From: Vescimonas coprocola
GTDB taxonomy: Bacteria; Bacillota; Clostridia; Oscillospirales; Oscillospiraceae
Direction: 5' to 3'
Assembly: GCF_018408575.1 (NCBI RefSeq)
Contig: NZ_AP023418.1
Span: 2,446,415 to 2,510,414, forward strand
Length of the DNA stretch: 64,000 nucleotides
Both the position numbers and the translations under genes were made by a program. A model generated the notes under the pieces. The model saw only the letters and a list, made by a program, of their open reading frames with translations, did not search any database and was not told the DNA's origin. This document shows, one piece after another, positions 29,801 through 51,335 of the stretch (the stretch's first letter is position 1; every line of letters starts with the position of its first letter).

Positions 29801-32800
29801 AACTAAAGGGCCAGCGTTACATTTTTATTTCAATCCACGCCCCCCGCGAGGGGGGCGACCTGGGCGTTTTAGGATATGCGGCCAACAGTGATTTATTTCA
29901 ATCCACGCCCCCCGCGAGGGGGGCGACCAAGTCTATACAGGGCTGTCGCTGTTTTCTCTCGGATTTCAATCCACGCCCCCCGCGAGGGGGGCGACGTGAT
30001 GATCCAGCGGGCCGTCTCGGGGACGTCGTATTTCAATCCACGCCCCCCGCGAGGGGGGCGACGTATCGGGCCATCACTGCGGAGTACGACCCTATCATTT
30101 CAATCCACGCCCCCTGCGAGGGGGGCGACATTCGGATGCTGGATGATGACGCATGGAAGCCATGATTTCAATCCACGCCCCCCGCGAGGGGGGCGACCTC
30201 CGTCAAATACATTGGTGATGTGGACTGGGCGAAATAATTTCAATCCACGCCCCCCGCGAGGGGGGCGACGGCAAAATGGCGGTTGCAATGGGTGTCCCCA
30301 CCCCGATTTCAATCCACGCCCCCCGCGAGGGGGGGCGACGCAGGCCCAAGACAAGGATTTCCCCCGCCTTGTATTTCAATCCACGCCCCCCGCGAGGGGG
30401 GCGACTACGAAGTTCGGGTTGTGGCAACCGATGCCTTTATTTCAATCCACGCCCCCCGCGAGGGGGGCGACCCTTTCCCTGTGTCTGCTAAATGCTGCGT
30501 CATTATATTTCAATCCACGCCCCCCGCGAGGGGGGCGACATACTGGGGGGTAAAAAAGAAAGGAGACGGCAGTATTTCAATCCACGCCCCCCGCGAGGGG
30601 GGCGACGCATATCTACTGATGTCAATTCCGCCAAATAAGCATTTCAATCCACGCCCCCCGCGAGGGGGGCGACTCCTTTATTTGGATGACTGTGTGGAGG
30701 GCAGAGAGATTTCAATCCACGCCCCCCGCGAGGGGGGCGACTACGGTTATTGTATCACACAGTAAACGTAAATGTATTTCAATCCACGCCCCCCGCGAGG
30801 GGGGCGACTGCTGTTTTGGCCGTTGCGTTTACTGATGCGGAATTTCAATCCACGCCCCCCGCGAGGGGGGCGACCAAATTCCGCCTCGATCTTGCGCAAA
30901 TCGGACAATTTCAATCCACGCCCCCCGCGAGGGGGGCGACTCTGTCGCTGCTTATGACGGTTTGTGCTCTGCTATTTCAATCCACGCCCCCCGCGAGGGG
31001 GGCGACGCTGACTGCGCCATGTGTGGTATAGATACAGGAATTTCAATCCACGCCCCCCCGCGAGGGGGGGCGACCGTTTCGCTGCAACAGGTGGTCCTCT
31101 GCGCTGAGAAATTTCAATCCACGCCCCCCGCGAGGGGGGCGACCAAAAGGGGGGCGTTTTGTGGATGGTGAAAAGCAATTTCAATCCACGCCCCCCGCGA
31201 GGGGGGCGACTCAGGGTCACGGAGGACGGCTGGTGGAGATCGGAATTTCAATCCACGCCCCCCGCGAGGGGGGCGACAGGTGCCGCCGGGGACTGTCTCC
31301 AGCTGGGACTATTTCAATCCACGCCCCCCGCGAGGGGGGCGACTTGTTGGTGTCATGCTCGCCCCACGGGTCATGCGATTTCAATCCACGCCCCCCGCGA
31401 GGGGGGGCGACGCCGCATCACGCAGGAGGCTGGTCGGCCTAAGCTATTTCAATCCACGCCCCCCGCGAGGGGGGCGACATCCAGTTTGTCAAAGGGGTAT
31501 TTACCGGCGACTGGATTTCAATCCACGCCCCCCGCGAGGGGGGCGACTTCGGTAGATGCGATACTACCAATCTACTACCAATATTTCAATCCACGCCCCC
31601 GCGAGGGGGGCGACTGGAGCCGGTCCAGATAGGGGTGGTCAGGCTGGAATTTCAATCCACGCCCCCCGCGAGGGGGGCGACCTCCAGACACATCATGGTC
31701 TGATCCACTGCATCCGGGATTTCAATCCACGCCCCCCGCGAGGGGGGCGACCGCCCCACTATCGAAAACGGAGGACGCTATGAGCATTTCAATCCACGCC
31801 CCCCGCGAGGGGGGCGACATTGCTCCTAACAACTCCTCGCTCAAACCTAACGGTAATTTCAATCCACGCCCCCCGCGAGGGGGGCGACGCCGGGATTCCA
31901 CGGCAAAAACCTCGTCCGGCTATTTCAATCCACGCCCCCCGCGAGGGGGGCGACTTGGCTTGTGGTCTAAATCTATGCTGCCAAGCTGGATTTCAATCCA
32001 CGCCCCCCCGCGAGGGGGGCGACGGCGCCGGGGGCTCCCACGCCAATAGGGACGTTTGGAATTTCAATCCACGCCCCCCGCGAGGGGGGCGACCCGACAT
32101 TTTGCTGGAATGCCTCCCAACACACGATTTCAATCCACGCCCCCCGCGAGGGGGGCGACGCTGATGTTTCAGCCATTAGAACTGCTTATGGGGATTTCAA
32201 TCCACGCCCCCCGCGAGGGGGGCGACCCATTGTGTTACCTCCTTAATACACCAACAGAGTATTTCAATCCACGCCCCCCGCGAGGGGGGCGACAATGATC
32301 ATACAAATTCCCCGCTTGTGATCAATGTATTTCAATCCACGCCCCCCGCGAGGGGGGCGACTGTAGGGCACCTCCTCGGAATACCACAACCATAGATGAT
32401 TTCAATCCACGCCCCCCGCGAGGGGGGCGACTTTCCGATTTGCGCAAGATCGAGGCAGAATTTGATACATTTCAATCCACGCCCCCCGCGAGGGGGGCGA
32501 CTGTAAAGTGCGCAATATGTGCGCCCCCCGTCCTCGTATTTCAATCCACGCCCCCCGCGAGGGGGGCGACCCCATAAGCTGTTCTAATGGCTGAAACATC
32601 AGCATTTCAATCCACGCCCCCCGCGAGGGGGGCGACTTAACGACATATTGCTATGCAGCATGGCACAACATTTCAATCCACGCCCCCCGCGAGGGGGGCG
32701 ACACAGTCGATGCGCTGCGCCGCGCCGCCTCGAAGATTTCAATCCACGCCCCCCGCGAGGGGGGCGACCCGCCGTGATGGCACGATACTGGCGTTCCCAG

Positions 32801-33580
32801 CTGGATTTCAATCCACGCCCCCCGCGAGGGGGGCGACTTAACGACATATTGCTATGCAGCATGGCACAACATTTCAATCCACGCCCCCCGCGAGGGGGGC
32901 GACACAGTCGATGCGCTGCGCCGCGCCGCCTCGAAGATTTCAATCCACGCCCCCCGCGAGGGGGGCGACCCGCCGTGATGGCACGATACTGGCGTTCCCA
33001 GCTGGATTTCAATCCACGCCCCCCGCGAGGGGGGCGACGTCAGTGATGTCGATTTGCTCCAAATAAAAATCATTTCAATCCACGCCCCCCGCGAGGGGGG
33101 CGACTGGCTTGTGGTCTAAATCCATGCTTCCCAGCTGGATTTCAATCCACGCCCCCCGCGAGGGGGGCGACTGCAGACCGTGGGGTCGCATCAGTCTGGA
33201 TCCCATTTCAATCCACGCCCCCCGCGAGGGGGGCGACGTCTTTGGTCGTTCTGGTACACAATCTGTCGTACATTTCAATCCACGCCCCCCGCGAGGGGGG
33301 CGACTTGGCTTGTGGTCTAAATCCATGCTTCCCAGCTGGATTTCAATCCACGCCCCCCGCGAGGGGGGCGACCGGCATGGTGGCGGGGAATATGTCCGAT
33401 AAGTTGGAATTTCAATCCACGCCCCCCGCGAGGGGGGCGACGTATTGCAGCTGCCGGTCGGTCAATGGTGTGTCGGATTTCAATCCACGCCCCCCGCGAG
33501 GGGGGCGACGCGCAGGAAATGGCGCTGGCCTCCGAGGCCGTCGACGTATTTCAATCCACGCCCCCCGCGAGGGGGGCGAC
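26868..33580 (-). CRISPR. Type I-C CRISPR array, about 100 repeats
   Basis: A hand count gives 100 repeats of 33 bases (range 32-35) and 99 spacers of about 33-37 bases. Read on the minus strand, the repeat begins GTCGCCCCCCTCGCGGGGGG and ends CGTGGATTGAAAT, the type I-C pattern with a GC-only hairpin. cas2 lies 233 bases beyond the high-coordinate end, so that end is leader-proximal and newest spacers are near 33.5 kb. Repeat variants include a T in the stem (27139, 27207, 30097) and slipped C/G runs. The repeat at 29688 ends GCGCC instead of GCGAC. Three adjacent spacers occur twice (32,637-33,005). Confidence 0.98.
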
Positions 33581-33812: not shown

Positions 33813-34103
33813 TCAGAGGATCAGGGGATCCTCCGGCAGATAGGTGCTCTTCGTACCGAAATGCTCCACTTTTTTCTCATATTGCTTCCCTAGATAGTAA
33901 AAGCGCAGACTGTCTTTCTCAGAATCCATGATGGACGGGAGCTGCGCCTGCAGGCGGCGGCACTGCCCTGCGTCCAGCAGGCACTCAAACACGGAATTTT
34001 GCACCCGCTGTCCGTAGTCCACGCACTTTTTAGCGATCTGCCGCAGGCGCTTGCGCCCGGCGGCGTCCTCGGTGTTTACATCGTATGTGATCAGCACCAG
34101 CAT
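33813..34103 (-). CDS. cas2: CRISPR-associated endoribonuclease-fold protein Cas2
   Basis: A 96-residue integration partner that bridges two Cas1 dimers in spacer acquisition. MLVLITYDVNTED gives the conserved N-terminal strand with Asp8, followed by RLRQIAKKCVDYGQRVQNSVFECLLD, typical of subtype I-C Cas2. ATG 34103 follows the cas1 stop by four bases. It is the last cas gene before the leader and array. Confidence 0.96.
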   Translation of the reverse strand: MLVLITYDVNTEDAAGRKRLRQIAKKCVDYGQRVQNSVFECLLDAGQCRRLQAQLPSIMDSEKDSLRFYYLGKQYEKKVEHFGTKSTYLPEDPLIL

Positions 34104-34107
34104 AGCA

Positions 34108-35139
34108 TCACTTCCATAAAAACGGCGGATAGCCGTCCAAGTCGCCGCGGAGGCAGCGAGCCAACAGTAGCGCCTGCGCATAGGGGATCATACCCCAACT
34201 CAGCTTTTCCCCCAGATAGGGGTGGGTCAGCGTGTCCTGCTTCCGCTCCTGCCAGGTCTTCAGGAATTTCCGGCGGCCGTCATCGGACAGCAGCACCGCA
34301 CCACTGTCCTGCATCTGAAAGTCCTCCGGGCGCAGCATTCGATTGTTCACGAGGGTCAGCACGAAGCGGTCTGCCATGCAGGGCCGCAGCTCCTCCATCA
34401 GATCCAGCGCCAACGACTGCCGTCCCGGCCGGTCGCGGTGGAGGAAGCCTACATAGCTGTCCAATCCGACGCTTTCCAAGGCGTTGGCACAGTCGTGTGC
34501 CAGCAGACTGTAGGCGAAAGACAGCATGGCGTTTACCCGATCCAGCGGCGGCCGACGGCTTCGTCCGTGGAAGAAGAATGCCTCCTTCCGGCTCAGGAGC
34601 ATATGATCGAGGACGTCGAAATACGCGGTGGCGGCAGCGCCCTCTATTCCCCGCAGGGAGTCCAAGTCAGCGGCAGCCAGCACCTGTGGCAGCATGGCCC
34701 GGAGGTTGGCAGCGGCTTTTTCCAATCCGCAGTCCGCCACGCGGGGCGCATGATCCCGCAGGGTACGCTGGATGCTGGCGGCACCGTTGCTCAGCTTGCC
34801 GAAGATCATGGTGCGGGCTATCTCACAGCTGCGAGCGGGGTCGTCAGCGATACGGTACTGCTCACGGCGGAGCAGTACGTTGCCGCTGCTCTCGCCGCAG
34901 GTGCGGGCAAGGAAACGTCCGTGCGGGGAGCAGAAGGCCAGACCGATCCCGGCCTCTGCACATTTGCCCATCAGCGCAGGGGAGGCACCGGCGTAGGAGA
35001 AGCTGACGATGGCTTGCAGCGTGTGCAGCGGGTAGCGGGCGACGACGGTCTTGTCTCGGTTTGCCAGCACATTTTCCCCCTCCAGCGAGAGGTAAATGTC
35101 CTCGGAGGTGATAAATAGCGTGTTGAGAAGCTGCTTCAT
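34108..35139 (-). CDS. cas1: CRISPR-associated integrase Cas1
   Basis: A 343-residue integrase that inserts new spacers at the leader-proximal repeat. The metal-binding set is visible: Glu in LRGIEGAAATAYF (about 165), His in GFLHRDRPGRQSLALDLMEELRP (about 233), and Glu in the same stretch (about 248). The length matches I-C Cas1. Its ATG overlaps the cas4 stop by four bases (ATGA), so acquisition genes are translationally coupled. Confidence 0.97.
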   Translation of the reverse strand: MKQLLNTLFITSEDIYLSLEGENVLANRDKTVVARYPLHTLQAIVSFSYAGASPALMGKCAEAGIGLAFCSPHGRFLARTCGESSGNVLLRREQYRIADDPARSCEIARTMIFGKLSNGAASIQRTLRDHAPRVADCGLEKAAANLRAMLPQVLAAADLDSLRGIEGAAATAYFDVLDHMLLSRKEAFFFHGRSRRPPLDRVNAMLSFAYSLLAHDCANALESVGLDSYVGFLHRDRPGRQSLALDLMEELRPCMADRFVLTLVNNRMLRPEDFQMQDSGAVLLSDDGRRKFLKTWQERKQDTLTHPYLGEKLSWGMIPYAQALLLARCLRGDLDGYPPFLWK

Positions 35140-35798
35140 GGTGATTCCTCCATGGCCGCCCGGAGATACGCAGAGACGGCTCTGCTTTTCATCAGCTTGG
35201 GCAGGCACAGCTCCTTCAAGGAGCAGGCATTGCAGGATTTGGTGGGCTTGACCTTGGGGGTATAGCCCCGACGGTACAGCTCGTGCATTTCCGCCAGCAG
35301 CTCCCGCACCCCTGTGCGCAGCTCCGGGGTGAAGGAAACCCTCTCTCGCCGGCGGATCTCCCCGTAATAGAGTGCGCCCTCAGGGATGTCGCAGCAGAGC
35401 ATGGACTCCAGGCACATGGCCTGCGCACATAGCTGCAGGGTGTCGCCAGTGTCCTCGCGGGGGCGGCCCCGCTTGTACTCCACCGGGTACGGCTGCCACA
35501 GTCCCTCTTTCCCGGAGAGGGGGATCCCGACGGAGCCCCGGTGATATTCCAGTACGTCGCACTGTCCGGATACACCCAGCTCCGCGGAATAGACGCTGAC
35601 GCCACGCGTAATAAAGCGGTCGCCCCGCCGCTCCTGAAGGCCCGTGTCGTGGGCGTTTTCGTGGAGGATCGCGCCGTCAATGGTGCGGTAGTTTTCCGCC
35701 CACTGGTGCTCGATGTGGATCAGCGCCCACTGCCGCCTGCAAAACCGAAAATGCTGTAAGCCGGAGAGCTGTAGGAAGTCCTCCTCATTATATGCCAT
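35136..35798 (-). CDS. cas4: CRISPR-associated exonuclease Cas4
   Basis: A 220-residue Fe-S nuclease that selects and trims prespacers with the correct PAM. RecB-type residues are present: GQCDVLEYHR and YPVEYKRGRP. The iron-sulfur cysteines are one near residue 20 (FCRRQW) and three in CNACSLKELC near residue 192. It overlaps the end of cas7 by 11 bases and couples to cas1. Confidence 0.96.
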   Translation of the reverse strand: MAYNEEDFLQLSGLQHFRFCRRQWALIHIEHQWAENYRTIDGAILHENAHDTGLQERRGDRFITRGVSVYSAELGVSGQCDVLEYHRGSVGIPLSGKEGLWQPYPVEYKRGRPREDTGDTLQLCAQAMCLESMLCCDIPEGALYYGEIRRRERVSFTPELRTGVRELLAEMHELYRRGYTPKVKPTKSCNACSLKELCLPKLMKSRAVSAYLRAAMEESP

Positions 35799-36636
35799 CG
35801 ATCACCTCCGGCTCCAGACCCGGCAGCGCCTCCAGCGAAATCACATAGTCGTCTGCGGAGGTGGGGATGGTACCCGCGTCCCGCAGCGCGACCTTGACGG
35901 AGCGGTGGACCTTTGCGGAGGAGTACTGCCCGTCCTTGCAGCTGTGGCGCCACCAGAACAGCTTCACCACCTCCATGGAGCCGTCGGGCCGTGCGGAGGA
36001 GGCATCGTTCACAAAGAGGGTGCGCAGACATTCCTTGACCGTGTCGGCGTCCTCCTCGGAGAAGCCAGTCTTTTCCGCCAACTGGACATTGATGGAGCCC
36101 TTGATCTCGTACAGGCCGAAGCGGACAAAGTGCTTCATACCCATGGTGTCGGAGGCGCGGTTCTCGCCCTTTTCCTTCTTCTCACCATTCACGCTCTTGG
36201 TGATTTGGAGGGACTCGATCTCCACGGGGGACAGGCTGGACGCCTGATGCACGGAGACCGGCCCGCGCACACCGCAGGAGAAGCCCTTGGCATCCTTGAA
36301 GGCGAACACCTGCCCAAAGGCACGCACATCCAGCCATGTCTCGCAGGCGCGCCGGGCATATTCCTCCCGATCCTTGATGCCCTTCATGGCGGCGGAGGCC
36401 CGCTCGCTGAGGCTGCCGCAGCCGTCGCTGCACCGATCCTCCGACTGAACGAAGATGGGCTTGCCCAGATCCTGCATCCGGTTGCGGATCTTGCGCTTGA
36501 TGCACACGTCGGAGATCTCACCAAAGCCGTTCAGGTCGGTGCGGGGGCGATTGCCGTTCAGAGGGTCACCGTTGCTGTTGGCGCGGGTCACGGAGACCAG
36601 TGCCACAAAATCGATCTTGTTTTGCAAGCTGCTCAT
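35788..36636 (-). CDS. cas7: Cas7 (Csd2) backbone subunit of type I-C Cascade
   Basis: A 282-residue RAMP protein that polymerises along the spacer part of crRNA. The start NKIDFVALVSVTRANSNGDPLNGNRPRTD is the Csd2/Csh2 signature, followed by GDPLNGN-type glycine loops and SGVRGPVSV equivalents (FSCGVRGPVSVHQASSLSPV). It follows cas8c with no gap and overlaps cas4. Confidence 0.96.
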   Translation of the reverse strand: MSSLQNKIDFVALVSVTRANSNGDPLNGNRPRTDLNGFGEISDVCIKRKIRNRMQDLGKPIFVQSEDRCSDGCGSLSERASAAMKGIKDREEYARRACETWLDVRAFGQVFAFKDAKGFSCGVRGPVSVHQASSLSPVEIESLQITKSVNGEKKEKGENRASDTMGMKHFVRFGLYEIKGSINVQLAEKTGFSEEDADTVKECLRTLFVNDASSARPDGSMEVVKLFWWRHSCKDGQYSSAKVHRSVKVALRDAGTIPTSADDYVISLEALPGLEPEVIDGI

Positions 36637-38430
36637 TTATTCTTCCTCCTGACTGTTTTCGGTCTTACCGGATGTGTACAGCGCACTGCGCTGCAGATAG
36701 TACCCAAAGAGATAGGTGTCCTTCAGGGCCTCCTCCTGTTCCGCCTGCGGGAAGGAGGAAATTTCTTGGATGATCTGCTCGATGATGCGGTCGTATTTTG
36801 TTCTGGCGCCGGGCTTGAGTTTGGGGTAGTACGCCTTTTTCAACTGCTCCCAGATGATCCGGCTGGCGTAGAGTGGACGCTTTGCGAACACGGACTGCAT
36901 CCGGATCGCGTTGGGCTCTCGCTGTTCATTGGGGTCATAGGTGTCTCGCTCAAGTTTTTCAAACACGGCCAAAAGCCGTCCGTACTGATAGCTGACATCC
37001 TTCTTCTGCGGTTCCAGTGCCATGCTCCATTCCTCCTTGTACCAATCATATTTGTATTTCCGAAGCACCGCACAGGCGGTGAACAATACCGTTTCCCGCA
37101 GGGCGGTATCCATGATCTGCAGGTTGGACGCCTTGGCCGCTGCAGCACGGGCGATATCCGCCGGCATTTTGCCCCGGTCCACCCGGCAGGAGAGCAGCCG
37201 CTGTACCTGCTGGCGCATGACGCGCTCGTCCGTTTCCAGCTTTGTCTGCTTGTCGGAGATGCGCACCGTGCCGAAGGCGCAGTCTGCGATCTGCGAAAGC
37301 GAGGGTGACTGTATGCCGAAGGAGGAATGCTCCCAGCAGCAAAGTGCATCCCAGTCGTGCAGGCGCTCCAGAAAATCAGAGACCGGAAGCTCGCTGTAAT
37401 AGGTGAGGGAAAGTCGTCCGGATGTGGCGGCGTCAAAGGCGGCCACTACGGCGCCGGCGTCCCGCGGGATCGTCTCCTGCCAGCCCCGGAGAGTTTCCGA
37501 CAACGCTTTTCGATAGTCGGAGTATTTTATCTGCTTGGCGGCGCCCCGCCGCAGGAAGGCGGCCTGCGGTTTGGGGATCTCAATGCCCTGCGGATTCCAG
37601 CATAGGAAGGTGCGCCCGCCGATGAAGACACCTTGGGTCGCCGCCAACCAGTGCAGCGCGCTGTGGATCTTCTGCGATGCCTCGTAGCTCATAGTTGCAG
37701 CTTGCGAATCGTCTGTGAAGCGGCCCCGATAGGTAAAGCCACTGGTGTCGTTGGCGGAGATCAGCTTGGCGTTGGCGCACAGGTTGATGATCTTCTTGGG
37801 GTGCTGGCTGGCGGGCGGGGCGTTTTTACCGGTAACCATGCAAAATGCGGGCTTCTCAGATTTCGTGGATGCATAGTAGTCGATGAAGGCTTGGAAGAGG
37901 CTCTGATCCTGCCAGCAGGCGGGCGTCTCATTTTCCCCACCTGTCTCTACACGCCAGCGGACGATCTGCTTTTCCTTGACAGGAAAGCCTTTTTCATCCA
38001 GTGCAATCAGGCCGCGCTGAGCCATATCCGCTGCGATTGTTCCCTTTTCCACATAGCGGGCGATGGCGGAGAGCTTGGGGTGGCCGTAGGGTGATAGCTC
38101 CCAGCGGTGCAGCTGTGTCAGGTAGCTTTCGTATTTGGCGGGATACAGCGGGGAGAGAAACTGAATCTGGTCGCACAGAGGGTGTGCGCCGGGGGCTTTG
38201 CCAGTTCGCCCTGAGGAACTCTCCGTCACAGGGATGATCGTGGCGGCCTGCTCCGCCTCGACGGAACGGGCGTCCAGTAGATGACCGTCCGCATCCAGAG
38301 TGAGCTCCAGCTCTGCGTTTACGATTTGGTGCGAAACAGGAACCAGTGGCTCCTTCGCCTTGCCGTAGATACCGGCGTATTGCGACTCCATGGCACAGTA
38401 GGTGTCATAGGCTTGCTGCATCAGTCCCAT
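36637..38430 (-). CDS. cas8c: Cas8c (Csd1) large subunit of type I-C Cascade
   Basis: A 597-residue large subunit that recognises the PAM and recruits Cas3. The N-terminus MGLMQQAYDTYCAMESQYAG and internal NLCANAKLISANDTSGFTYRGRF are typical of Csd1, as is VFIGGRTFLCWNPQG. In I-C systems an internal start in this gene also gives the small subunit Cas11c; the last third would contain it, but no internal start was chosen. It abuts cas5 and cas7. Confidence 0.95.
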   Translation of the reverse strand: MGLMQQAYDTYCAMESQYAGIYGKAKEPLVPVSHQIVNAELELTLDADGHLLDARSVEAEQAATIIPVTESSSGRTGKAPGAHPLCDQIQFLSPLYPAKYESYLTQLHRWELSPYGHPKLSAIARYVEKGTIAADMAQRGLIALDEKGFPVKEKQIVRWRVETGGENETPACWQDQSLFQAFIDYYASTKSEKPAFCMVTGKNAPPASQHPKKIINLCANAKLISANDTSGFTYRGRFTDDSQAATMSYEASQKIHSALHWLAATQGVFIGGRTFLCWNPQGIEIPKPQAAFLRRGAAKQIKYSDYRKALSETLRGWQETIPRDAGAVVAAFDAATSGRLSLTYYSELPVSDFLERLHDWDALCCWEHSSFGIQSPSLSQIADCAFGTVRISDKQTKLETDERVMRQQVQRLLSCRVDRGKMPADIARAAAAKASNLQIMDTALRETVLFTACAVLRKYKYDWYKEEWSMALEPQKKDVSYQYGRLLAVFEKLERDTYDPNEQREPNAIRMQSVFAKRPLYASRIIWEQLKKAYYPKLKPGARTKYDRIIEQIIQEISSFPQAEQEEALKDTYLFGYYLQRSALYTSGKTENSQEEE

Positions 38431-39162
38431 TTACTCCACCTCCCCAAATTCCCGCAGACCGATAAAATTGCCCTCGTCGGCGGAAAAGCTCTTCATAGGC
38501 ATCTCCCGCAGAGGCTTCTGCCCCGGACAATCCTCCGGTGGGAGAAAGTGAATGACGCCGTTTTTCATGACCGGGTACCAAAACCGGGCAGTCATCCGTC
38601 CGCGGGTCTCCTCCGAGTAGGCCTCGTCCGGGTAGGTGATGCCGTGGTACATCAGCCCGAAGCCCAGCTCCGGCAGATCGTCGTAGGCGCCTGCGCCGTT
38701 TCCGAATACGCAGGGCTCTACATAGCCCTGACATTCCCGGGTACCCAGAAAAATATCACGCCGCCCGCCCTTTTCGATCATTCGGCGGGCAATGCAGTGA
38801 TGTTTGTTCTCATTTCGGTCGCCGCACAGCTCTGGGCGGTTGTCGTTCCAGTCGAAGCAGGCCCGCACCTGATACCGGCAGCTTTTCAGATAGGTGTAAT
38901 ACGCCAGATCGTTGCCGCCGCTGTATTTGATGGGGCGGATGCCTTTCACCTCGGTCTGGATCGGGTTCATGACCCGCACGTCCAGGATTCGCCAGATGAA
39001 GGTGGGCTTCCAGTATACAGAGGATAAAATGCCCTTCAGTGCCTCATAGGTGGGTACCTGATAGCTGCACTTTTCACCGCCCAGACGCATGAGAGGGTCG
39101 GAGAAGAGGGCGTAATCACCGTATACCTCAAATTCTACGATGTTGGGATGTTCTGTTTTCAA
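38431..39162 (-). CDS. cas5c: Cas5 (Cas5d) crRNA-processing subunit
   Basis: A 243-residue RAMP endoribonuclease that replaces Cas6 in subtype I-C: it cuts at the base of the repeat hairpin and holds the 5' handle. The N-terminal NIVEFEVYGDYALFSDPLMR and the mid segment KGILSSVYWKPTFIWRI are family-typical, and YKNA-like RMIEKGGRRDIFLGTREC follows. It should also process the crRNA-like RNA upstream of cas3. The stop lies just before cas8c. Confidence 0.95.
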   Translation of the reverse strand: MKTEHPNIVEFEVYGDYALFSDPLMRLGGEKCSYQVPTYEALKGILSSVYWKPTFIWRILDVRVMNPIQTEVKGIRPIKYSGGNDLAYYTYLKSCRYQVRACFDWNDNRPELCGDRNENKHHCIARRMIEKGGRRDIFLGTRECQGYVEPCVFGNGAGAYDDLPELGFGLMYHGITYPDEAYSEETRGRMTARFWYPVMKNGVIHFLPPEDCPGQKPLREMPMKSFSADEGNFIGLREFGEVE

Positions 39163-39165
39163 TCG

Positions 39166-41571
39166 CTACACCTCCTGAAAATCACGGGTACCGGCCTCCA
39201 GGGAAAAACCGGTATGTTCGTTATAAAAGCCATCGGACAACAGCAGTATGCCGCCGTCGAACAGTGAGGTCACGGCGCCGAGGCTCTCAAGCCGCTCCAG
39301 CTGATAGCGGTAGACGCTGACGCAGTAGCCCTTTGCCTCGTCAATGCAGCCGCAAATGACCGCCCAATCCTTCTGCCCGTAGACCTGAGCGGCGTTTCGC
39401 AGCGTGTTTTGCAGCTCGCGCCCTCTTCCGTAGGGTACGAGCAGGGCGCTCGTGTCCTCGTCGAATACCTGAAAAAGACTGCCTGCCAGACGAAACGCCT
39501 GCCGCAGAAGGTAGCGCTCCGCCTGCGCACAGTTGGCGTCTGCATACCGGGGGTTGTCCGCCAGCAGATGATAGAGGGAACCGTGCGCCTGGGTTTGGTC
39601 GTCCTGAAAGCCGGGCTCCATCTCTGTGTATAGCCGACGATAGTAGAACCGGATGGACTCCTCGGAGGACAGATCGTGCCGGAAAACCTCCGGCGTTTTG
39701 GAAAAGGCGTTCAGCAGCGCGGTGGTGGCGTTCTGTCCGCGCACGATGTCGTCCAGACCACGCAGCCGCTCGTCGGTACACCGGATGAGGCGGACGGGGG
39801 CGGGCTTCTTTTGCTCGGCGTGCCGGTTGCACCGCCCTGCCGCCTGCACGACACTGTCCATTCCGGCGGAGAAGCGGATCACCCGCTGGAAGGAGATGTC
39901 CACACCGGCCTCGATCACCTGCGTGGAGACGCAGACAACCCTTTGCCTGTCGGCGGAGGGCTTGTCCAGCGCGGACTGTAAGGCTTGCAGAGTCTCCCTG
40001 CGGTGCTGCATGCACATGGCGGCGGACAGATGGAAGCACCGGCAATTCTCGGTTTGCAGCGACTCGAACAGGAACGCCGCCTCCTTTTTTGTGTTGCACA
40101 CCACCAGCAGACTGTCGCACGACGACAGTACCTCCGTGACGATCTGCGAGAGCTCCTCCAGCTTGGCACATCCGGCATTTTGGATGTCGGTGCGCTTAAA
40201 GACGTCCCACAGTGCCTTTTGCTGCGGAACCAGATCGACGGGCTGGCGGTGCAGAGGATGGTCGGCTGCCTCCAGACAGGGCTGGGTGGCGGAGCACAGA
40301 ACAATGGTGGCGCCGCAGACCTCGGACAGGAAGTTGACCGCCAAATTGAACAGCGTCAGCATTTTGCCGGGAACGGTCTGCACCTCGTCGATCACAATGA
40401 CGCTGCCGCACAGCGCATGAAATCTGCGGATGGCGCTGGTCCTCCCACTGAAGCAGGTGTTCAGCAGCTGCACCAGCGTGGTGATAATGATCGGCGCCGA
40501 CCAGGAGGCGGTGAGCAGCTCCAGCTCCTGTAAGCGCTCCGGCGTCTCCTTCGGCTCGGCAAGGTTGGAGTGATGCTCTAGTATCAAAGTGTCGTCCCCT
40601 ATGTAATCGCGGATGACCTGGGCATTTTGATCCAGGATCGACAGCAGCGGTGCGGTGAAGATAATTCGAGAGCAGTTCCACTTTGCCGCGTGGGTCAATG
40701 CGAAGCGGAGACTGGCCAGCGTTTTTCCGCCGCCGGTGGGAACATTCAGGCGGTAGACACCTCCGGGCCGGGCGGCACCGGCGGCACAGGTGTCGGAGAT
40801 GGTGTGGCGCGCCAGATCAATGGGCGTTTTTCGCGGGAATGCCGCCAGCTTCTTCTCCATAAACGCCAGCCGTTCTGTCCAGATTGGCCGCATATCCTCT
40901 GGGAACACGGGCGGTTCTATCCCATCCATAAAAGCGGCGGTGTCCGTGCGATCCCCCTCGATCACGGCGGACAGGAGCATCCGAGCCAGAAGACCGATAT
41001 AAAATGCGGTCTCCCGATCCGCCTCATTGTCGTCCGCTTGGGTGGACAGAGCCGCCAGCCGATCCAGCATCGGGGCCATCTCCCGGACGGCACTGTGGAA
41101 CAAGCGCTCCAGCTCCTCCTCGTCAGCAACCTCCGCCAAAAAGCCCTGTCGGGATTCATCGTAAAAGATCCCCTCCTTGGTCTGGCGATGAAAAAAGCCA
41201 CTGTGCTGCTGGGGGTCGATACAGTCAAACAGGCCGTGATGTGAGCCAACGGCAAAGGCCAGCAGCTCTGCGGTCACGTCGGAATAGGAGAACGTACCGC
41301 AGCCGCCGTGCCAACGATCCAGCAGAAGGCGCACGCCGGCGAAGGTATGGTTGACACTGCCACGGACGGCGTTCCCGCCGCTGACAGCCTCCGAAAGGTA
41401 TTGCGCATACTCCTGTTTGTTTTTTCCGGCGTCGTGGAGCAGACCGGCCAAATAGGCGCATTTCTCCAGACCCAGCGGCCGCAGTGCGGCTGCGGCCAGC
41501 GCCGCCGTGTTCCGGCAATGCTCCTGGACGGTTTGCCGCTCTCTGGTTTCGCGGATATGGGCAGGATACAT
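39166..41571 (-). CDS. cas3: Cas3 helicase-nuclease
   Basis: An 801-residue effector recruited by Cascade to unwind and shred target DNA. The N-terminal HD nuclease shows CRNTAALA, LAGLLHDAGKNKQEY and the later VGSHHGLFD. The SF2 helicase has NVPTGGGKTLASLRFAL (Walker A), VIVIDEVQTVPGKML (motif II as DEVQ), VLCSATQPCLE (motif III) and CVSTQVIEAGVDISF (motif V). ATG 41571 has AGGA upstream; GTG 41580 is an alternative. It leads the operon cas3-cas5-cas8c-cas7-cas4-cas1-cas2. Confidence 0.96.
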   Translation of the reverse strand: MYPAHIRETRERQTVQEHCRNTAALAAAALRPLGLEKCAYLAGLLHDAGKNKQEYAQYLSEAVSGGNAVRGSVNHTFAGVRLLLDRWHGGCGTFSYSDVTAELLAFAVGSHHGLFDCIDPQQHSGFFHRQTKEGIFYDESRQGFLAEVADEEELERLFHSAVREMAPMLDRLAALSTQADDNEADRETAFYIGLLARMLLSAVIEGDRTDTAAFMDGIEPPVFPEDMRPIWTERLAFMEKKLAAFPRKTPIDLARHTISDTCAAGAARPGGVYRLNVPTGGGKTLASLRFALTHAAKWNCSRIIFTAPLLSILDQNAQVIRDYIGDDTLILEHHSNLAEPKETPERLQELELLTASWSAPIIITTLVQLLNTCFSGRTSAIRRFHALCGSVIVIDEVQTVPGKMLTLFNLAVNFLSEVCGATIVLCSATQPCLEAADHPLHRQPVDLVPQQKALWDVFKRTDIQNAGCAKLEELSQIVTEVLSSCDSLLVVCNTKKEAAFLFESLQTENCRCFHLSAAMCMQHRRETLQALQSALDKPSADRQRVVCVSTQVIEAGVDISFQRVIRFSAGMDSVVQAAGRCNRHAEQKKPAPVRLIRCTDERLRGLDDIVRGQNATTALLNAFSKTPEVFRHDLSSEESIRFYYRRLYTEMEPGFQDDQTQAHGSLYHLLADNPRYADANCAQAERYLLRQAFRLAGSLFQVFDEDTSALLVPYGRGRELQNTLRNAAQVYGQKDWAVICGCIDEAKGYCVSVYRYQLERLESLGAVTSLFDGGILLLSDGFYNEHTGFSLEAGTRDFQEV

Positions 41572-41622
41572 GGCGATCACATCCTGTCATATATTTTTTA
41601 ACGCGCATATGTTGATGCTTTA

Positions 41623-41651
41623 ACCATACCACACTCACCGAGGTTTGTAAA
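41623..41651 (-). promoter_or_regulatory. cas operon promoter
   Basis: On the minus strand TTTACA (41651-41646), a 17-base spacer and TATGGT (41628-41623), about 50 bases ahead of cas3. The putative self-target of the upstream guide RNA abuts its -35 box. Confidence 0.75.
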
Positions 41652-41654
41652 GAC

Positions 41655-41677
41655 TTCAGCAACAAGGATAAGCAACA
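41655..41677 (+). promoter_or_regulatory. Putative Cascade self-target at the cas promoter
   Basis: TTC (41655-41657, the type I-C PAM) precedes AGCAACAAGGATAAGC (41658-41673). This matches the spacer-like part of the RNA at 41744-41759 (AGCAAAAAGGAGAAGC) at 14 of 16 positions; the two mismatches are at positions 6 and 12, which are flipped out in type I crRNA-DNA hybrids. The similarity ends after position 16, so binding without cleavage is expected. Confidence 0.75.
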
Positions 41678-41684
41678 AAAAACA

Positions 41685-41712
41685 TTGACTTTTTTGTATG
41701 CTATGCCATACT
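41685..41712 (+). promoter_or_regulatory. Promoter of the crRNA-like RNA
   Basis: TTGACT (41685-41690), a 16-base spacer and CATACT (41707-41712). Transcription would begin near 41718-41721, right at the repeat-like hairpin. Confidence 0.65.
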
Positions 41713-41718
41713 GTGTGG

Positions 41719-41807
41719 GTCGGGTATTCCCGTGGATTGAAAGAGCAAAAAGGAGAAGCTGCGCAAGGCCTGGCAGGGGAACATCCCCTGCTGCGCCCTG
41801 CGCAGCT
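41719..41807 (+). ncRNA. crRNA-like guide RNA with a miniature CRISPR repeat (CreR-like)
   Basis: The RNA begins with a short hairpin CGGG-TATT-CCCG (41721-41732) followed by TGGATTGAAAG (41733-41743), which equals the 11-base 3' handle of the array repeat except for the last base. A spacer-like segment starts at 41744. A long stem-loop follows: AGCTGCGCA/TGCGCAGCT (41757-41765 with 41799-41807) enclosing GCAGGGG/CCCCTGC (41773-41779 with 41785-41791). It could stand in for a second repeat or end the transcript. The RNA is divergent from cas3. Cas-regulating crRNA-like RNAs (CreR) are known in other subtypes; its role here is inferred. Confidence 0.7.
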
Positions 41808-41899
41808 CCATTTGTCAGATATTGTAAATCTGAGAAATAGTCGGGGGTGTGGATGGTGTCATACATACCGCCTTGCGTTTACGATGCCTCCCGCGTCCC

Positions 41900-42712
41900 T
41901 CAAAGCACGATGCTGCCGGTTTCTTTGCCGTCCAGCGCAAAGTTCAGCAGCGTCCCCTTGCAGACGGCGGCGAAATACTGCGTCGCCTCAAGCTGTGCAG
42001 GGTAGTTCTTCTCAATGAGTTCCAGCGTCTCCCTCAGCTGCAGCATGGCTGCGAATTTATGTTTGCACGGCTCGCTGCAGAAGCAGTCGCAAACCAGATT
42101 TCTGATCTCGCCGTTAGCATAGTCGCACGCCAGCTCGTAAGGCCGCGATCCCTCCACAATGGCCCGCACATGGGTATTGTCCAGAAAAATGTACCGTATC
42201 CGATTGTCCGTGTAGTAATCGTGGCCGCGATCGGCAGTTGCCCTGCTGATGCTCATGGCGCTCAGATCACGCAGCAGGAAGCCGCAATCATCATTGCCGG
42301 AAACAAATATCTCATCCTCCGTGGCGGGTGACTTAAACCAGGCGATGACCTTTTCGTAAGGAAGAGTGCTGCGGTCGAACGTGACGAAGTGCGACCCGGC
42401 GAAGAAGAACTCGCCCTGTACATTTGTGTCGGACACGCTGATGACCCGCTTGTAGTCATATAGCTTGATCTTGAAATTGTACGCGACATCCACCACACGG
42501 CCACGCAGGCCCTCCAGCTTGCCCTCCACAAAAACGATATCTCCGCATTTCAGGTCAAAGGCGTCATTGTAGTAAGACAGATTCATATTCCGCGCCGGAA
42601 AATGGACGCGAACGACCGATTTTCTCGGCGTAACTGCGGGGCAAATGGAGTGCGCCTCCCCAGGTGCCTTGCGATGCTCTTCTACGGAACCATTAAAACC
42701 GATTTTGAACAT
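41900..42712 (-). CDS. SWIM zinc-finger protein
   Basis: A 270-residue protein. The SWIM motif CxC...CxH appears as LVCDCFCSEPCKHKFAAML near residue 215; this fold binds DNA or protein and is common in helicase partners and in small proteins of mobile regions. The N-terminal ~190 residues match nothing I recognise. No catalytic domain is seen. It sits upstream of the cas operon on the same strand but is separated from it by the guide-RNA unit, so a functional link to CRISPR is unproven. Confidence 0.65.
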   Translation of the reverse strand: MFKIGFNGSVEEHRKAPGEAHSICPAVTPRKSVVRVHFPARNMNLSYYNDAFDLKCGDIVFVEGKLEGLRGRVVDVAYNFKIKLYDYKRVISVSDTNVQGEFFFAGSHFVTFDRSTLPYEKVIAWFKSPATEDEIFVSGNDDCGFLLRDLSAMSISRATADRGHDYYTDNRIRYIFLDNTHVRAIVEGSRPYELACDYANGEIRNLVCDCFCSEPCKHKFAAMLQLRETLELIEKNYPAQLEATQYFAAVCKGTLLNFALDGKETGSIVL

Positions 42713-43046: not shown

Positions 43047-43181
43047 GCGGGTGCCGCCGATACCATCGGCAGTGGCATCAGTCAGACCATGTAGCCCGCA
43101 AAAAACAGCCGGAGAGGGACGGATGATGCCATCCGCCCCTCTCCGGTGCTTTCCTGACCTCTCGGCTTTTGGGTCACGGAA
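43047..43181 (+). pseudogene. Integrase 3'-end remnant with its terminator
   Basis: Codons AGAADTIGSGISQTM-stop (43047-43094) match the end of the complete integrase at 51,270 and the truncated one at 62,066. The following hairpin (GGAGAGG...CCTCTCC around CGGATG/CATCCG) and the CTCGGCTTTTGGGTCACGG flank repeat those of the 62-kb copy. Everything upstream of the last 15 codons is lost. Confidence 0.8.
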
Positions 43182-43200: not shown

Positions 43201-44670
43201 TCACTCCTCCACTGCCACATATCGCTGCTTGGAACTGCGGGGTTTATCAGGCAGCGTCATCCGAATCGCTCCACACGCTACGAGAGGATCAAGGTAACGC
43301 CGCAGGGCATACTGCCCTGACGCAATATTTAGATATGCAATGATCTCGCTGCGGCTTCGAGGTGTACGGCAGAATTTCAGCAGACCTTTTTCGTCTTGCA
43401 CGTTAGCTTGTTTTACATCCTCGTCGCCGACACTTCCCGCTGCACCATGCTCACCATTGTACAGCGTCACGACAAATTCGCTGCGCCGATCCGCGAATAC
43501 CGGCTCTGGCAGGTTGCGGTTTTTCATGGCAAACCGAATCGTAGGAATCCCGGAATAGCGATTCTCAGTTTCCCCCAGGGTCTCCATTACGGTAACAAGA
43601 ACCGGGTTTCGGGTATCCGGCTGGGCATTGCCCAACTGGTCGAGAGTCAATCTACCATAAAGCCCACCCGGATTTGTGATCTCGATCCGATTGGAATACA
43701 TGACCAACTGGATCGGCATTCCCTCGGTATGCAGACTATAATCCCGGTGTACCAACGCATTGAGTATCGCCTCGCGGGCAGCGTCCATAGGGTACTGCGG
43801 AATATCAATTCTCTCGCCTGTTTCTTTGTCGATCCTTGTGGCCGTCCGCATATTGGCTCGAACAAAGGTCAACGCACCCTCCAGCATATCCGGAAGCGTA
43901 CCTTCGATCCGCTTTGTGTCGCTGAATCGGTTGCCCTCTGCGTCAAGAACGCCCATTTGCTCTGCGGGTACACAGGTGGCAATGATGCTCAGTTGCGGAT
44001 AAAACGCCTGCGGGTAGAGTCCGAACAGCAGCAATGCCGCCATGGTGATTTTCCCATCCCGCGTGATGCCGGTCAGTTCATACTGCTGTGCCTCCGACAT
44101 ACCCGCCAAATTCGGACGCGCACATGTTTTTCTCTCCAAATACGTTTTTACCTTAGACATATCCAGCGATTGGAAGGACACCCTTTCCGCTGGACGAATA
44201 TCGTCTTGATATTTCTTTCGGAACGCCTCGTAGCTGTATACTTCGTACTCCGTCATGGGCTTGTCTCCGTCACCTATGCGGATATAGGACCCGTGTAGCC
44301 GTCCCTTGGCTGTTTTGAAGCAAGGGCGTTCAGCAATATCAACGGGTGGGATCTCCGCAGAGACAAATGTAAGCCCATCTTCATCCACCTCGGTAAATTG
44401 CGGTCGAACGATCGGCGTCATTTGATCGCAGTATTCCATTACCTTGCGCTCCAAGTCCTGTGCGTCGTAGACGCCCACCTTTGCGAAGCCGTTCTTTTCC
44501 TCCAAGCCGAACACAAAGATTCCCCCGCTATTTTGATTGGAAAACGCAGAGATCGTATCATATAACCTTTCAGGACAGCCCTGCCGCGCCGCCTTTACTT
44601 CTATGGTTTGTCCTTCACAGCCACGAATCCGAATGCTTTCAATCAGATCGCGAAGCTCCTTTTCTACCAT
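43201..44670 (-). CDS. AlbA (Schlafen-type) domain and HATPase regulator-like protein
   Basis: About 489 residues of the COG2865 type. The N-terminal AlbA_2 domain (GQTIEVKAARQGCPERLYDT, AFSNQNSGGIFVFGLEE, about residues 20-65) binds nucleic acid in relatives. A GHKL/HATPase-like C-terminal segment reads DAAREAILNALVHRDYSLH and EITNPGGLYGRLT. A winged helix end (RSRSEIIAYLNIASGQYALRRYL) is typical. Such proteins are frequent in defence islands and as transcription regulators. ATG 44670 has GGGAG upstream. Repeated CGCAAGA motifs precede the gene. Confidence 0.85.
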   Translation of the reverse strand: MVEKELRDLIESIRIRGCEGQTIEVKAARQGCPERLYDTISAFSNQNSGGIFVFGLEEKNGFAKVGVYDAQDLERKVMEYCDQMTPIVRPQFTEVDEDGLTFVSAEIPPVDIAERPCFKTAKGRLHGSYIRIGDGDKPMTEYEVYSYEAFRKKYQDDIRPAERVSFQSLDMSKVKTYLERKTCARPNLAGMSEAQQYELTGITRDGKITMAALLLFGLYPQAFYPQLSIIATCVPAEQMGVLDAEGNRFSDTKRIEGTLPDMLEGALTFVRANMRTATRIDKETGERIDIPQYPMDAAREAILNALVHRDYSLHTEGMPIQLVMYSNRIEITNPGGLYGRLTLDQLGNAQPDTRNPVLVTVMETLGETENRYSGIPTIRFAMKNRNLPEPVFADRRSEFVVTLYNGEHGAAGSVGDEDVKQANVQDEKGLLKFCRTPRSRSEIIAYLNIASGQYALRRYLDPLVACGAIRMTLPDKPRSSKQRYVAVEE

Positions 44671-44689
44671 GCAAATCACTCCCTTGCGC

Positions 44690-49948: not shown

Positions 49949-50107
49949 ATGCCGAAGAAACGAGCAAATGGAGAGGGGGACGTTTGCGAGCGCCGCCGGT
50001 GGCGGATGAAGCGAGCAAAAAGGAGTGGCAGCCGCGCCGCTGGCGGCCCCGAATGGAGGCCGGGAGCGGCAATGCGGCAACAGGATGAAAGTTGGAGGGT
50101 GCATTGA
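49949..50107 (+). CDS. Small ORF echoing the integrase N-terminus
   Basis: Fifty-two codons beginning MPKKRANGEGDV after AAGGAG. The complete integrase downstream begins MAKKKRANGEGSL. After about 11 residues the similarity stops and the sequence becomes Arg/Gly-rich. It is either a partial duplication of the integrase 5' end or a short leader peptide. It ends two bases before the integrase ATG. Confidence 0.4.
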   Translation: MPKKRANGEGDVCERRRWRMKRAKRSGSRAAGGPEWRPGAAMRQQDESWRVH

Positions 50108-50109
50108 GT

Positions 50110-51270
50110 ATGGCAAAGAAGAAACGTGCAAACGGTGAGGGGAGTCTGCGCAAGCGGAAAGACGGCCGCTGGGAGGGACGCTACACCGCAGGCAATGATC
50201 CCACCACCGGCAAGCCCATCCACAAGAGCGTCCTCGCCAAGACGCAGGCAGAAGCCAAGGAAAAGCTCAAGCAGGCCATTGCGGAGGCTGAAAAGCTGGA
50301 CATGAGCCGTGCAAAATCCTACACGCTGGGCGCTTGGATCAAGCTGTGGTACGAGGTCTACGCCGAGCCGCGCCTTCGGGAGAAAACCAAGGACTACTAC
50401 CTCAACTACATTGACAACCACATCATTCCCGAGTTGGGCAACACGCCGCTGGAAAAGCTGACCACCATCCAGATCCAGAAGTTCTACAACGACCTGCAAA
50501 AATCCGGCCGCATCCAGCGATATACCCACATCAAGCTGAAGGATAAGGGCCTCAGCACCCGCGTGGTACGGGGCATCCACACGCTGCTGAACAACTGCCT
50601 GGAGCAGGCGGTGGCGGAGCGGCTGCTCCTTACCAACCCCGCTAAGGGCTGCCGCCTGCCAAAGCTGGAAAAGCGGGAGATGAAGATACTGCCGGAGGAC
50701 AAGATCGGCCCGTATCTGGCCGAAGCAGAACGGCGCGGACTGCTGGCGGCATTCTATTTGGAACTGACCACCGGCCTGCGCCGGGGCGAGCTCCTCGCCC
50801 TGCTGTGGACGGACTTGGACGTGGAGAACATGACCATCTCTGTCAGCAAGCAGGTGAACCGCATCAACGGCGAACTGGTGGTCAGCCAGCCCAAGACGCC
50901 TAACTCCATCCGCAGACTGGCCATCCCGCAGCGGGCGGTGGAGCTGCTGGTAGAGGAACACACAAAGCACCCCCACAGTCCCTACCTGTTCGTGTCGCCC
51001 AAGACCGGCACCATGTTCGACCCGGACTCCTTCCGGCACACCCATGAGAAGATCCTGAAGGCCATCGGTGCGGAGCACATCAGGTTTCACGACCTCAGAC
51101 ACACCTTCGCCACGCTGTCCCTCAAGTACGGTGTGGACGTCAAGACGCTGTCCGGTGCGCTGGGACACTACGACGCGGGCTTTACCCTCAGCACCTACAC
51201 CCACGCCACGGAGGGGATGAAGCGCTCCGCCGCCGACACCATCGGCAGCGTCATCAGCCAGACCATGTAG
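50110..51270 (+). CDS. int: Tyrosine recombinase (integrase), complete
   Basis: A 386-residue Tn916/ICE-type integrase. The N-terminal AP2-like arm-binding domain (ANGEGSLRKRKDGRWEGRYT) and the SAM-like core-binding domain (about 65-165) precede the catalytic domain. Catalytic residues are Arg in TTGLRRGELLAL, His-x2-Arg in FHDLRHTFATLS, His in LGHYDAGF and the nucleophile Tyr in STYTHAT. It should integrate and excise the HTH-mobC-mobA-xis-int element. Its 3' end recurs at 43,094 and 62,066. Confidence 0.95.
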   Translation: MAKKKRANGEGSLRKRKDGRWEGRYTAGNDPTTGKPIHKSVLAKTQAEAKEKLKQAIAEAEKLDMSRAKSYTLGAWIKLWYEVYAEPRLREKTKDYYLNYIDNHIIPELGNTPLEKLTTIQIQKFYNDLQKSGRIQRYTHIKLKDKGLSTRVVRGIHTLLNNCLEQAVAERLLLTNPAKGCRLPKLEKREMKILPEDKIGPYLAEAERRGLLAAFYLELTTGLRRGELLALLWTDLDVENMTISVSKQVNRINGELVVSQPKTPNSIRRLAIPQRAVELLVEEHTKHPHSPYLFVSPKTGTMFDPDSFRHTHEKILKAIGAEHIRFHDLRHTFATLSLKYGVDVKTLSGALGHYDAGFTLSTYTHATEGMKRSAADTIGSVISQTM

Positions 51271-51279
51271 CCCACAAAA

Positions 51280-51335
51280 ATAGTCCGAGAGGGACGGATG
51301 ATGCCATCCGCCCCTCTCCGGTGCTTTTGCGCGCT
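51280..51335 (+). terminator. Integrase terminator
   Basis: CCGAGAGGG-A-CGGATG pairs with CATCCG-CC-CCTCTCCGG, followed by TGCTTTTGCG. The same hairpin follows the other two integrase ends in the island. Confidence 0.75.

Follow-up and report, generated by a model that had tools for sequence, protein, structure and literature searches.

Introduction

Standalone CRISPR repeats whose spacers are partly complementary to cas promoters were reportedly surveyed by Shmakov et al. in NAR in 2023, and are said to occur mostly in type I systems and mostly as mini-arrays with two repeats. In type II-A systems a natural single-guide RNA, tracr-L (Workman 2021), reportedly steers Cas9 to its own promoter. 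The cas-regulating CreR RNAs are credited in reviews to Liu et al. (2023, Cell Host Microbe), and the passages available from one review describe them as mediating autorepression in types I-B, I-E and V-A via partial complementarity to the promoter (PMC13131331). CreA, of the CreTA and CrePA systems, is presented in review excerpts as guiding Cascade to repress a promoter, again through partial complementarity. Racrs are described as phage-carried decoys built on a solitary repeat unit, with one type I-C case (PMC10651486).

Here we describe an element in a window of 64,000 nucleotides, the whole stretch of DNA analysed, which on the evidence of its sequence is very probably a CreR-like cas autorepressor of type I-C, in which a single psi-repeat is followed by a guide of 16-17 nt and a 3' hairpin. 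In the titles, abstract openings and passages searched, no CreR of type I-C was found; the Shmakov survey may list type I-C elements, and an earlier prediction of CreR-like elements in this subtype is possible.

Results

The type I-C locus and its array

The window carries a complete type I-C locus, encoded on the minus strand and running cas3, cas5c, cas8c, cas7, cas4, cas1 and cas2 and then the CRISPR array. All seven cas products gave Pfam matches above cutoff (Cas3, Cas5, Csd1, Cas7, Cas4, Cas1 and Cas2), hence the cognate effector genes appear to be intact. The first gene of the operon is cas3 (39166-41580, with HD and helicase domains by Pfam). It is followed by cas5c, the presumed processing nuclease (38431-39162, scanned as 38431-39159; PF09704, Cas_Cas5d), cas8c/csd1 (36637-38430; PF09709), cas7c (35788-36636; PF05107), cas4 (35136-35798; PF01930), cas1 (34108-35208; PF01867) and cas2 (33813-34181; PF09827).

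The array lies on the same strand at 26868-33578 (edges approximate) and has about 100 repeats, of which 86 in 100 read GTCGCCCCCCTCGCGGGGGGCGTGGATTGAAAT. The repeat core CGTGGATTGAAA is present in 101 copies in the 2.56-Mb genome, 100 of them in the array and one in the psi-repeat upstream of cas3. At 32599-33012 a three-spacer block appears to be tandemly duplicated, which was seen as a repeated translation. Spacers 26 and 27, in transcription order, both match the phage record MT837048.1, and a match to MT836707.1 was found for spacer 57, each taking in all of the first 33 nucleotides. The 5' neighbours of these matches are ACA, TTC and TTC, respectively, giving TTC in two of the three. That two neighbouring spacers derive from a single phage may be a sign of primed adaptation.

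Several features were seen beyond the cas locus. The 270-residue protein encoded just upstream of it (41900-42712, minus strand) gave no Pfam match; its CDCFCSEPCKH stretch presumably recalls a SWIM zinc finger. The protein encoded at 43201-44679 has Schlafen AlbA_2, HATPase_c_4 and Fic-like C-terminal domains. A pair of 52-nt direct repeats (at 43053-43152 and 51229-51327; 90% and 94% identical), which take in the 3' end of an integrase gene (50092-51270), probably marks the duplicated end, or the scar, of an integrated element lying at about 43.1-51.3 kb.

A one-repeat CRISPR RNA unit upstream of cas3

Upstream of cas3 and outside the array, a divergent promoter-like site on the plus strand is followed by a one-repeat mini-CRISPR RNA unit (41719-41806) that points away from cas3. 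The predicted promoter of this CreR-like unit (41685-41712) has TTGACT at 41685-41690, a 16-nt spacer, CATACT at 41707-41712 and a TG before the -10 box. The 25-nt psi-repeat GTCGGGTATTCCCGTGGATTGAAAG (41719-41743), which has the one repeat core that this genome contains outside the array, consists of GT, a 4-bp stem (CGGG-TATT-CCCG) and the handle TGGATTGAAAG, and its 3' end, TGGATTGAAA, is identical to the end of the array repeat. The 16-nt guide AGCAAAAAGGAGAAGC follows at 41744-41759. Its end overlaps a GC-rich 3' hairpin (41758-41806) with a folding z of -6.2 against 100 dinucleotide shuffles. The promoter, the psi-repeat hairpin, the array-like handle and the GC-rich hairpin after the guide had all been read at this locus in the initial annotation, and each is present at its site. 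The 3' hairpin is without a T-run and terminator calling gave no prediction there. No second handle was found near the guide, the best candidate having 4 mismatches in 10, so the unit does not take the two-repeat psiR1-spacer-psiR2 form. The closest of the array spacers still differs from the guide at 7 of 16 positions.

The putative target of this guide (41655-41673, plus strand) comprises a TTC PAM at 41655-41657 and the protospacer AGCAACAAGGATAAGC at 41658-41673. It is located between two divergent predicted promoters, the second of which, on the minus strand, is that of cas3 (41623-41651; TTTACA at 41651-41646, 17 nt, TATGGT at 41628-41623). The PAM end of the target and the predicted cas3 -35 box are 3 bp apart, in keeping with the earlier description of a TTC-flanked site abutting that box. 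Guide and target agree at all 14 of positions 1-16 other than 6 and 12, where they are mismatched; the match of 14 in 16 that had been claimed thus proved exact to the base. With positions 6 and 12 left free, the genome contains two copies of the 16-mer and no more, one being the target and the other the guide. A scan of viral contigs returned at least 120 stretches matching the 16-mer, a word that, having 14 specified bases, should also be met by chance. When the 231-nt region was used as a DNA query against 32 genomes from the genus, the window itself was the only match, and the comparison was therefore made through cas3.

Survey of cas3 upstream regions

A single Cas3 sequence used as query gave no related loci, and an alignment-based scan then found them. 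Loci were gathered from the family of the window, named genome contigs, the order and phylum, the family of a Helicobacteraceae match and ten named plasmid loci. This gave 307 loci, or 301 after removal of 6 near-duplicates, of which 290 were scored once 11 with less than 200 nt upstream had been set aside; the upstream window was set from the estimated cas3 start. We looked for solitary handles with at most one mismatch, and in the same region for a YTY-flanked target matching the guide in at least 13 of 14 positions, namely 1-16 with 6 and 12 left out.

The 290 loci contain 134 solitary handles, 26 of which have a YTY-flanked target at 13 or 14 of 14. In a control in which the guides were searched in 60 other loci each, a single trial in 8,012 reached 13/14 with a YTY PAM, compared with 26 in 134 at the own locus. 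The 26 handles represent 25 distinct elements, as the guide of L175 is the same as that of L063 and was counted once. Another guide, at L242:936 of the scanned region, is 14/14 and TTT-flanked but was dropped by the solitary filter and stands outside the 25; a second, degenerate handle-like site lies 64 nt on, and L242 is a possible two-repeat form. A candidate at L040 (13/14, AAG) was judged to be due to chance.

Among 35 perfect handles, 21 have a target at 13/14 or better, one has a target at 12/14 and 13 are without a YTY-flanked target of at least 12/14. Two of these 13 come close, L120 (13/14 with CCC) and L116 (11/14 with CTC). These are sister elements with targets just after the -10 box; pairing is limited to positions 1-11 in L116, next to its CTC, and covers 1-15 except 6 in L120, with CCC at the place of the PAM.

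The majority of the type I-C loci examined are without an element, and the 26 positives in 290 give no estimate for all I-C systems, because the sample is made up of the cas3 genes nearest to that of the window. Nor are the relatives in the survey independent samples. The sample from the family of the window has the element in 10 of 61 loci, and none of the ten named plasmid loci has it. Elements were also found in other Bacillota (for example L130, L131, L228 and L232). Another, L165 (13/14, TTC), is on a contig that carries the label Helicobacteraceae, and L341, from the same family, is a weaker second example at 12/14. Since most of these genomes are metagenome-assembled, single taxonomic assignments may be wrong. 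The region upstream of cas3 in L141 contains many interspersed GAATAGAGAATGG-like repeat copies unrelated to CRISPR.

Pairing rules and PAM

The 25 elements have 24 different 16-nt guides with a mean pairwise identity of only 5.5 in 16. As judged from these sequences, what is conserved is the pairing and not the letters of the guide. Matching is near complete at positions 1-5, 7-11 and 13-16, falls to 14/25 at position 17 and 3/25 at position 18, and is at background beyond. A stop of pairing at position 16 had been proposed for the window, where it holds; across the family the range is 16-17 nt. A position-blind rule (at least 13 of 16) kept 27 elements, and 40 of their 56 mismatches fall at positions 6 or 12; the control for this rule gave 16 in 5,307. 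Positions 6 and 12 are where, in type I effectors, a base is flipped out of the guide-target hybrid.

The PAMs of the 25 elements are TTC (19), TTT (4) and CTC (2), and the best site found without a PAM rule is the same in all 25. The assignment of TTC as the type I-C PAM is supported by these 19 elements in 25, together with the two TTC-flanked phage matches out of three for the array's own spacers. Without a PAM rule 30 handles reach 13/14, flanked by TTC (19), TTT (4), CTC (2), AAG (3), CAC (1) and CCC (1), and the five matches with AAG, CAC or CCC count against our reading.

Guide-target coevolution

Comparison of cas3 upstream regions for covariation of guide and target, which had been suggested at the outset, yielded equally matched guides of different wording and compensatory changes in sister loci. 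In the closest relative found, L100 (cas3 64% identical), guide and target have changed as pairs with respect to the window at positions 3, 9, 14, 15 and 16, and separate changes of either one are confined to positions 6 and 12. Similarly, L118 and L119 differ by joint changes at 1 and 7, and the weaker elements L116 and L120 by joint changes at 1 and 15. L044 and L106 have a guide in common, and their targets differ only at 6, 12 and 14. The joint changes indicate that guide and target have been kept in step by selection in these loci.

Independent divergence of guide and target in homologous loci, named earlier as evidence that would refute the proposal, is confined to positions 6 and 12 when the window is compared with L100, and L057 is an exception. 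Its sister L059 (cas3 90% identical) pairs guide and target at 13/14 with TTT; L057 retains a similar guide, no target was found upstream of its cas3 and the target region has changed. L057 has therefore either lost its target or never had one.

Architecture of the family

For the architecture we used a set of 26 elements, namely 24 at 13/14 or better together with L203 and L341 at 12/14. The mean length of the repeat stems is 5.46 bp when both arms come from one locus, compared with 3.78 bp when arms are swapped between loci and a maximum of 4.48 bp in 200 swapped sets. The 5' edge of the repeat (GT followed by at least 3 stem pairs) is recognisable in 24 of the 26, and 19 of these 24 have a -10-like box whose end is 3-8 nt upstream of that edge, as against 193 of 720 random placements. 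A -10-like box at a set distance before the repeat suggests that the RNA probably begins with the repeat itself. In 25 of 26 elements the 71-nt stretch that follows guide position 14 has a folding z of -2 or lower relative to shuffles. No second handle within 1 mismatch was found downstream of 25 guides, the nearest being that of L201 at 2 mismatches.

In 19 of 25 cases the element and cas3 are divergently oriented. Between 1 and 7 bp separate the edge of the target from a predicted -35 box in 12 of 26 elements, compared with 121 of 2,456 mock sites. For most other targets the best predicted promoter is on the far side, which would place the site in the early transcribed region or overlapping the promoter. 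Against the reading as cas regulators, the targets of L069, L113 and L234 are some 470-920 nt upstream from where cas3 is estimated to start and might belong with another gene.

Discussion

The anatomy of the element, its uniqueness in the genome, its recurrence with different guides, the compensatory changes, the PAM and the 6/12 periodicity are observed directly here, and they are consistent with an element that, with high likelihood, works like a CreR. Its transcription and processing, and the binding, repression and release that would follow, are inferred.

An array remnant or a chance self-acquired spacer, that is a decayed single repeat with a functionless spacer taken from the cas3 promoter, seems very unlikely to us. 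Solitary repeats without a target do exist upstream of cas3, for example in L170, L226 and L238, where they run in the same direction as cas3 and could be array remnants or guides aimed elsewhere. However, a match of about 34 nt would be expected of a self-acquired spacer, whereas the match drops to background after 16-17 nt in 25 elements and the mismatches are concentrated at positions 6 and 12. The covarying repeat stems, the fixed place of the -10 box before the repeat and the compensatory changes in sister loci likewise argue against decay.

It is less probable still that the element is an RNA anti-CRISPR or other decoy that occupies Cas proteins, with the guide being irrelevant. Racrs are solitary repeats, and a type I-C example, RacrIC1, is described (PMC10651486). 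The window element, however, adjoins cas3, and its guide, which is specific to the locus, matches a site at the cas promoter that is flanked by a PAM, and in its relatives it is pairing and not sequence that is conserved.

Just as improbable is an antitoxin RNA of the CreA type (CreTA/CrePA), which would follow the same guide logic and repress a neighbouring toxin instead of cas. The distant targets of L069, L113 and L234 may indeed serve another gene. In the window, however, the site is at the cas3 promoter, the 16-mer is found nowhere else in the genome, and a search of 41580-41900 for open reading frames of at least 80 residues showed overlapping frames and no toxin-like gene, though a small RNA or peptide toxin may be encoded there.

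Least probable of all is that the two 16-bp copies are ordinary transcription factor operators or a duplicated promoter fragment beside a coincidental handle, for although both copies flank divergent promoters in a common operator layout, all listed elements have the handle before one copy in the same register and the PAM before the other, 24 different words in 25 elements rule against a single DNA-binding protein as shared reader, and an unrestricted pair scan of 61 loci gave 8 pairs with a perfect handle, one at distance 2 and the others at 4 or more.

With the element read as a CreR-like autorepressor, we propose the following model. A small RNA would start at about 41718 from its own divergent promoter and open with the shortened CRISPR repeat. 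Cas5c would cut at the base of the repeat hairpin to leave the I-C 5' handle UGGAUUGAAAG and the guide, and this guide RNA would be loaded into Cas5c/Cas8c/Cas7. The loaded complex would then settle on the TTC-flanked site, its PAM end 3 bp from the cas3 -35 box, and block RNA polymerase. As pairing is limited to 16 nt with positions 6 and 12 unpaired, binding without cutting by Cas3 would be expected. The body of the effector, reaching from the PAM towards the -35 box of the RNA (41685-41690), might cover both promoters. When effector is in excess over array crRNAs the cas operon would be repressed; by analogy with CreRs, it would be released when crRNAs or anti-CRISPRs take up the effector. 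The array, as the canonical source of crRNAs, is the expected competitor.

A broader proposal, to which we give about even chances, is that type I-C has its own class of autorepressor. Its members would have one psi-repeat starting at the transcription start, a guide of at most about 17 nt (segments 1-5, 7-11 and 13-17, with 6, 12 and 18 free) and a structured 3' hairpin in place of the second repeat, perhaps giving a short Cascade. Docking would often be 1-7 bp from the cas -35 box, and in the window the complex could also limit synthesis of its own RNA. Such a class would recur with unlike guides in Bacillota and, from one good and one weak case, in Campylobacterota.

If our reading is correct, autorepression of cas genes by an RNA guide is also found in type I-C, which is common and is employed in genome editing, and I-C loci would raise cas expression upon loss of crRNAs or in the presence of anti-CRISPRs. 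The pairing rules (TTC, 5+5+5 pairs and none after 17) would then represent a naturally selected guide with which I-C Cascade binds but does not cut, useful for the design of CRISPR interference. Because guide and target coevolve, the element is easy to find and to test.

The element can finally be set against the known systems. Like those of the standalone repeats of Shmakov et al., its spacer is partly complementary to a cas promoter; unlike most of them, which reportedly have two repeats, it has one. With tracr-L it shares the steering of an effector to its own promoter, but tracr-L employs Cas9 and a tracrRNA isoform whereas here Cascade would use a repeat-derived RNA. CreA, in the review excerpts, represses a toxin and not cas, whereas the target in the window is at the cas3 promoter. 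Racrs, which act as decoys, are described without a matched promoter site, whereas the window element has a matched target beside it, directly upstream of cas3. It is closest to CreR as the reviews portray it, that is a crRNA-like RNA from a mini-CRISPR near cas, partly complementary to a cas promoter and expected to act through its own effector. It differs from the CreRs in those reviews (types I-B, I-E and V-A) in belonging to type I-C. On a comparison by review descriptions only, its family is further set apart from CreR by the absence, L201 apart, of a second handle within 2 mismatches downstream in the 25 elements, by a stable hairpin after the guide and by 16-17-nt pairing with positions 6 and 12 free.
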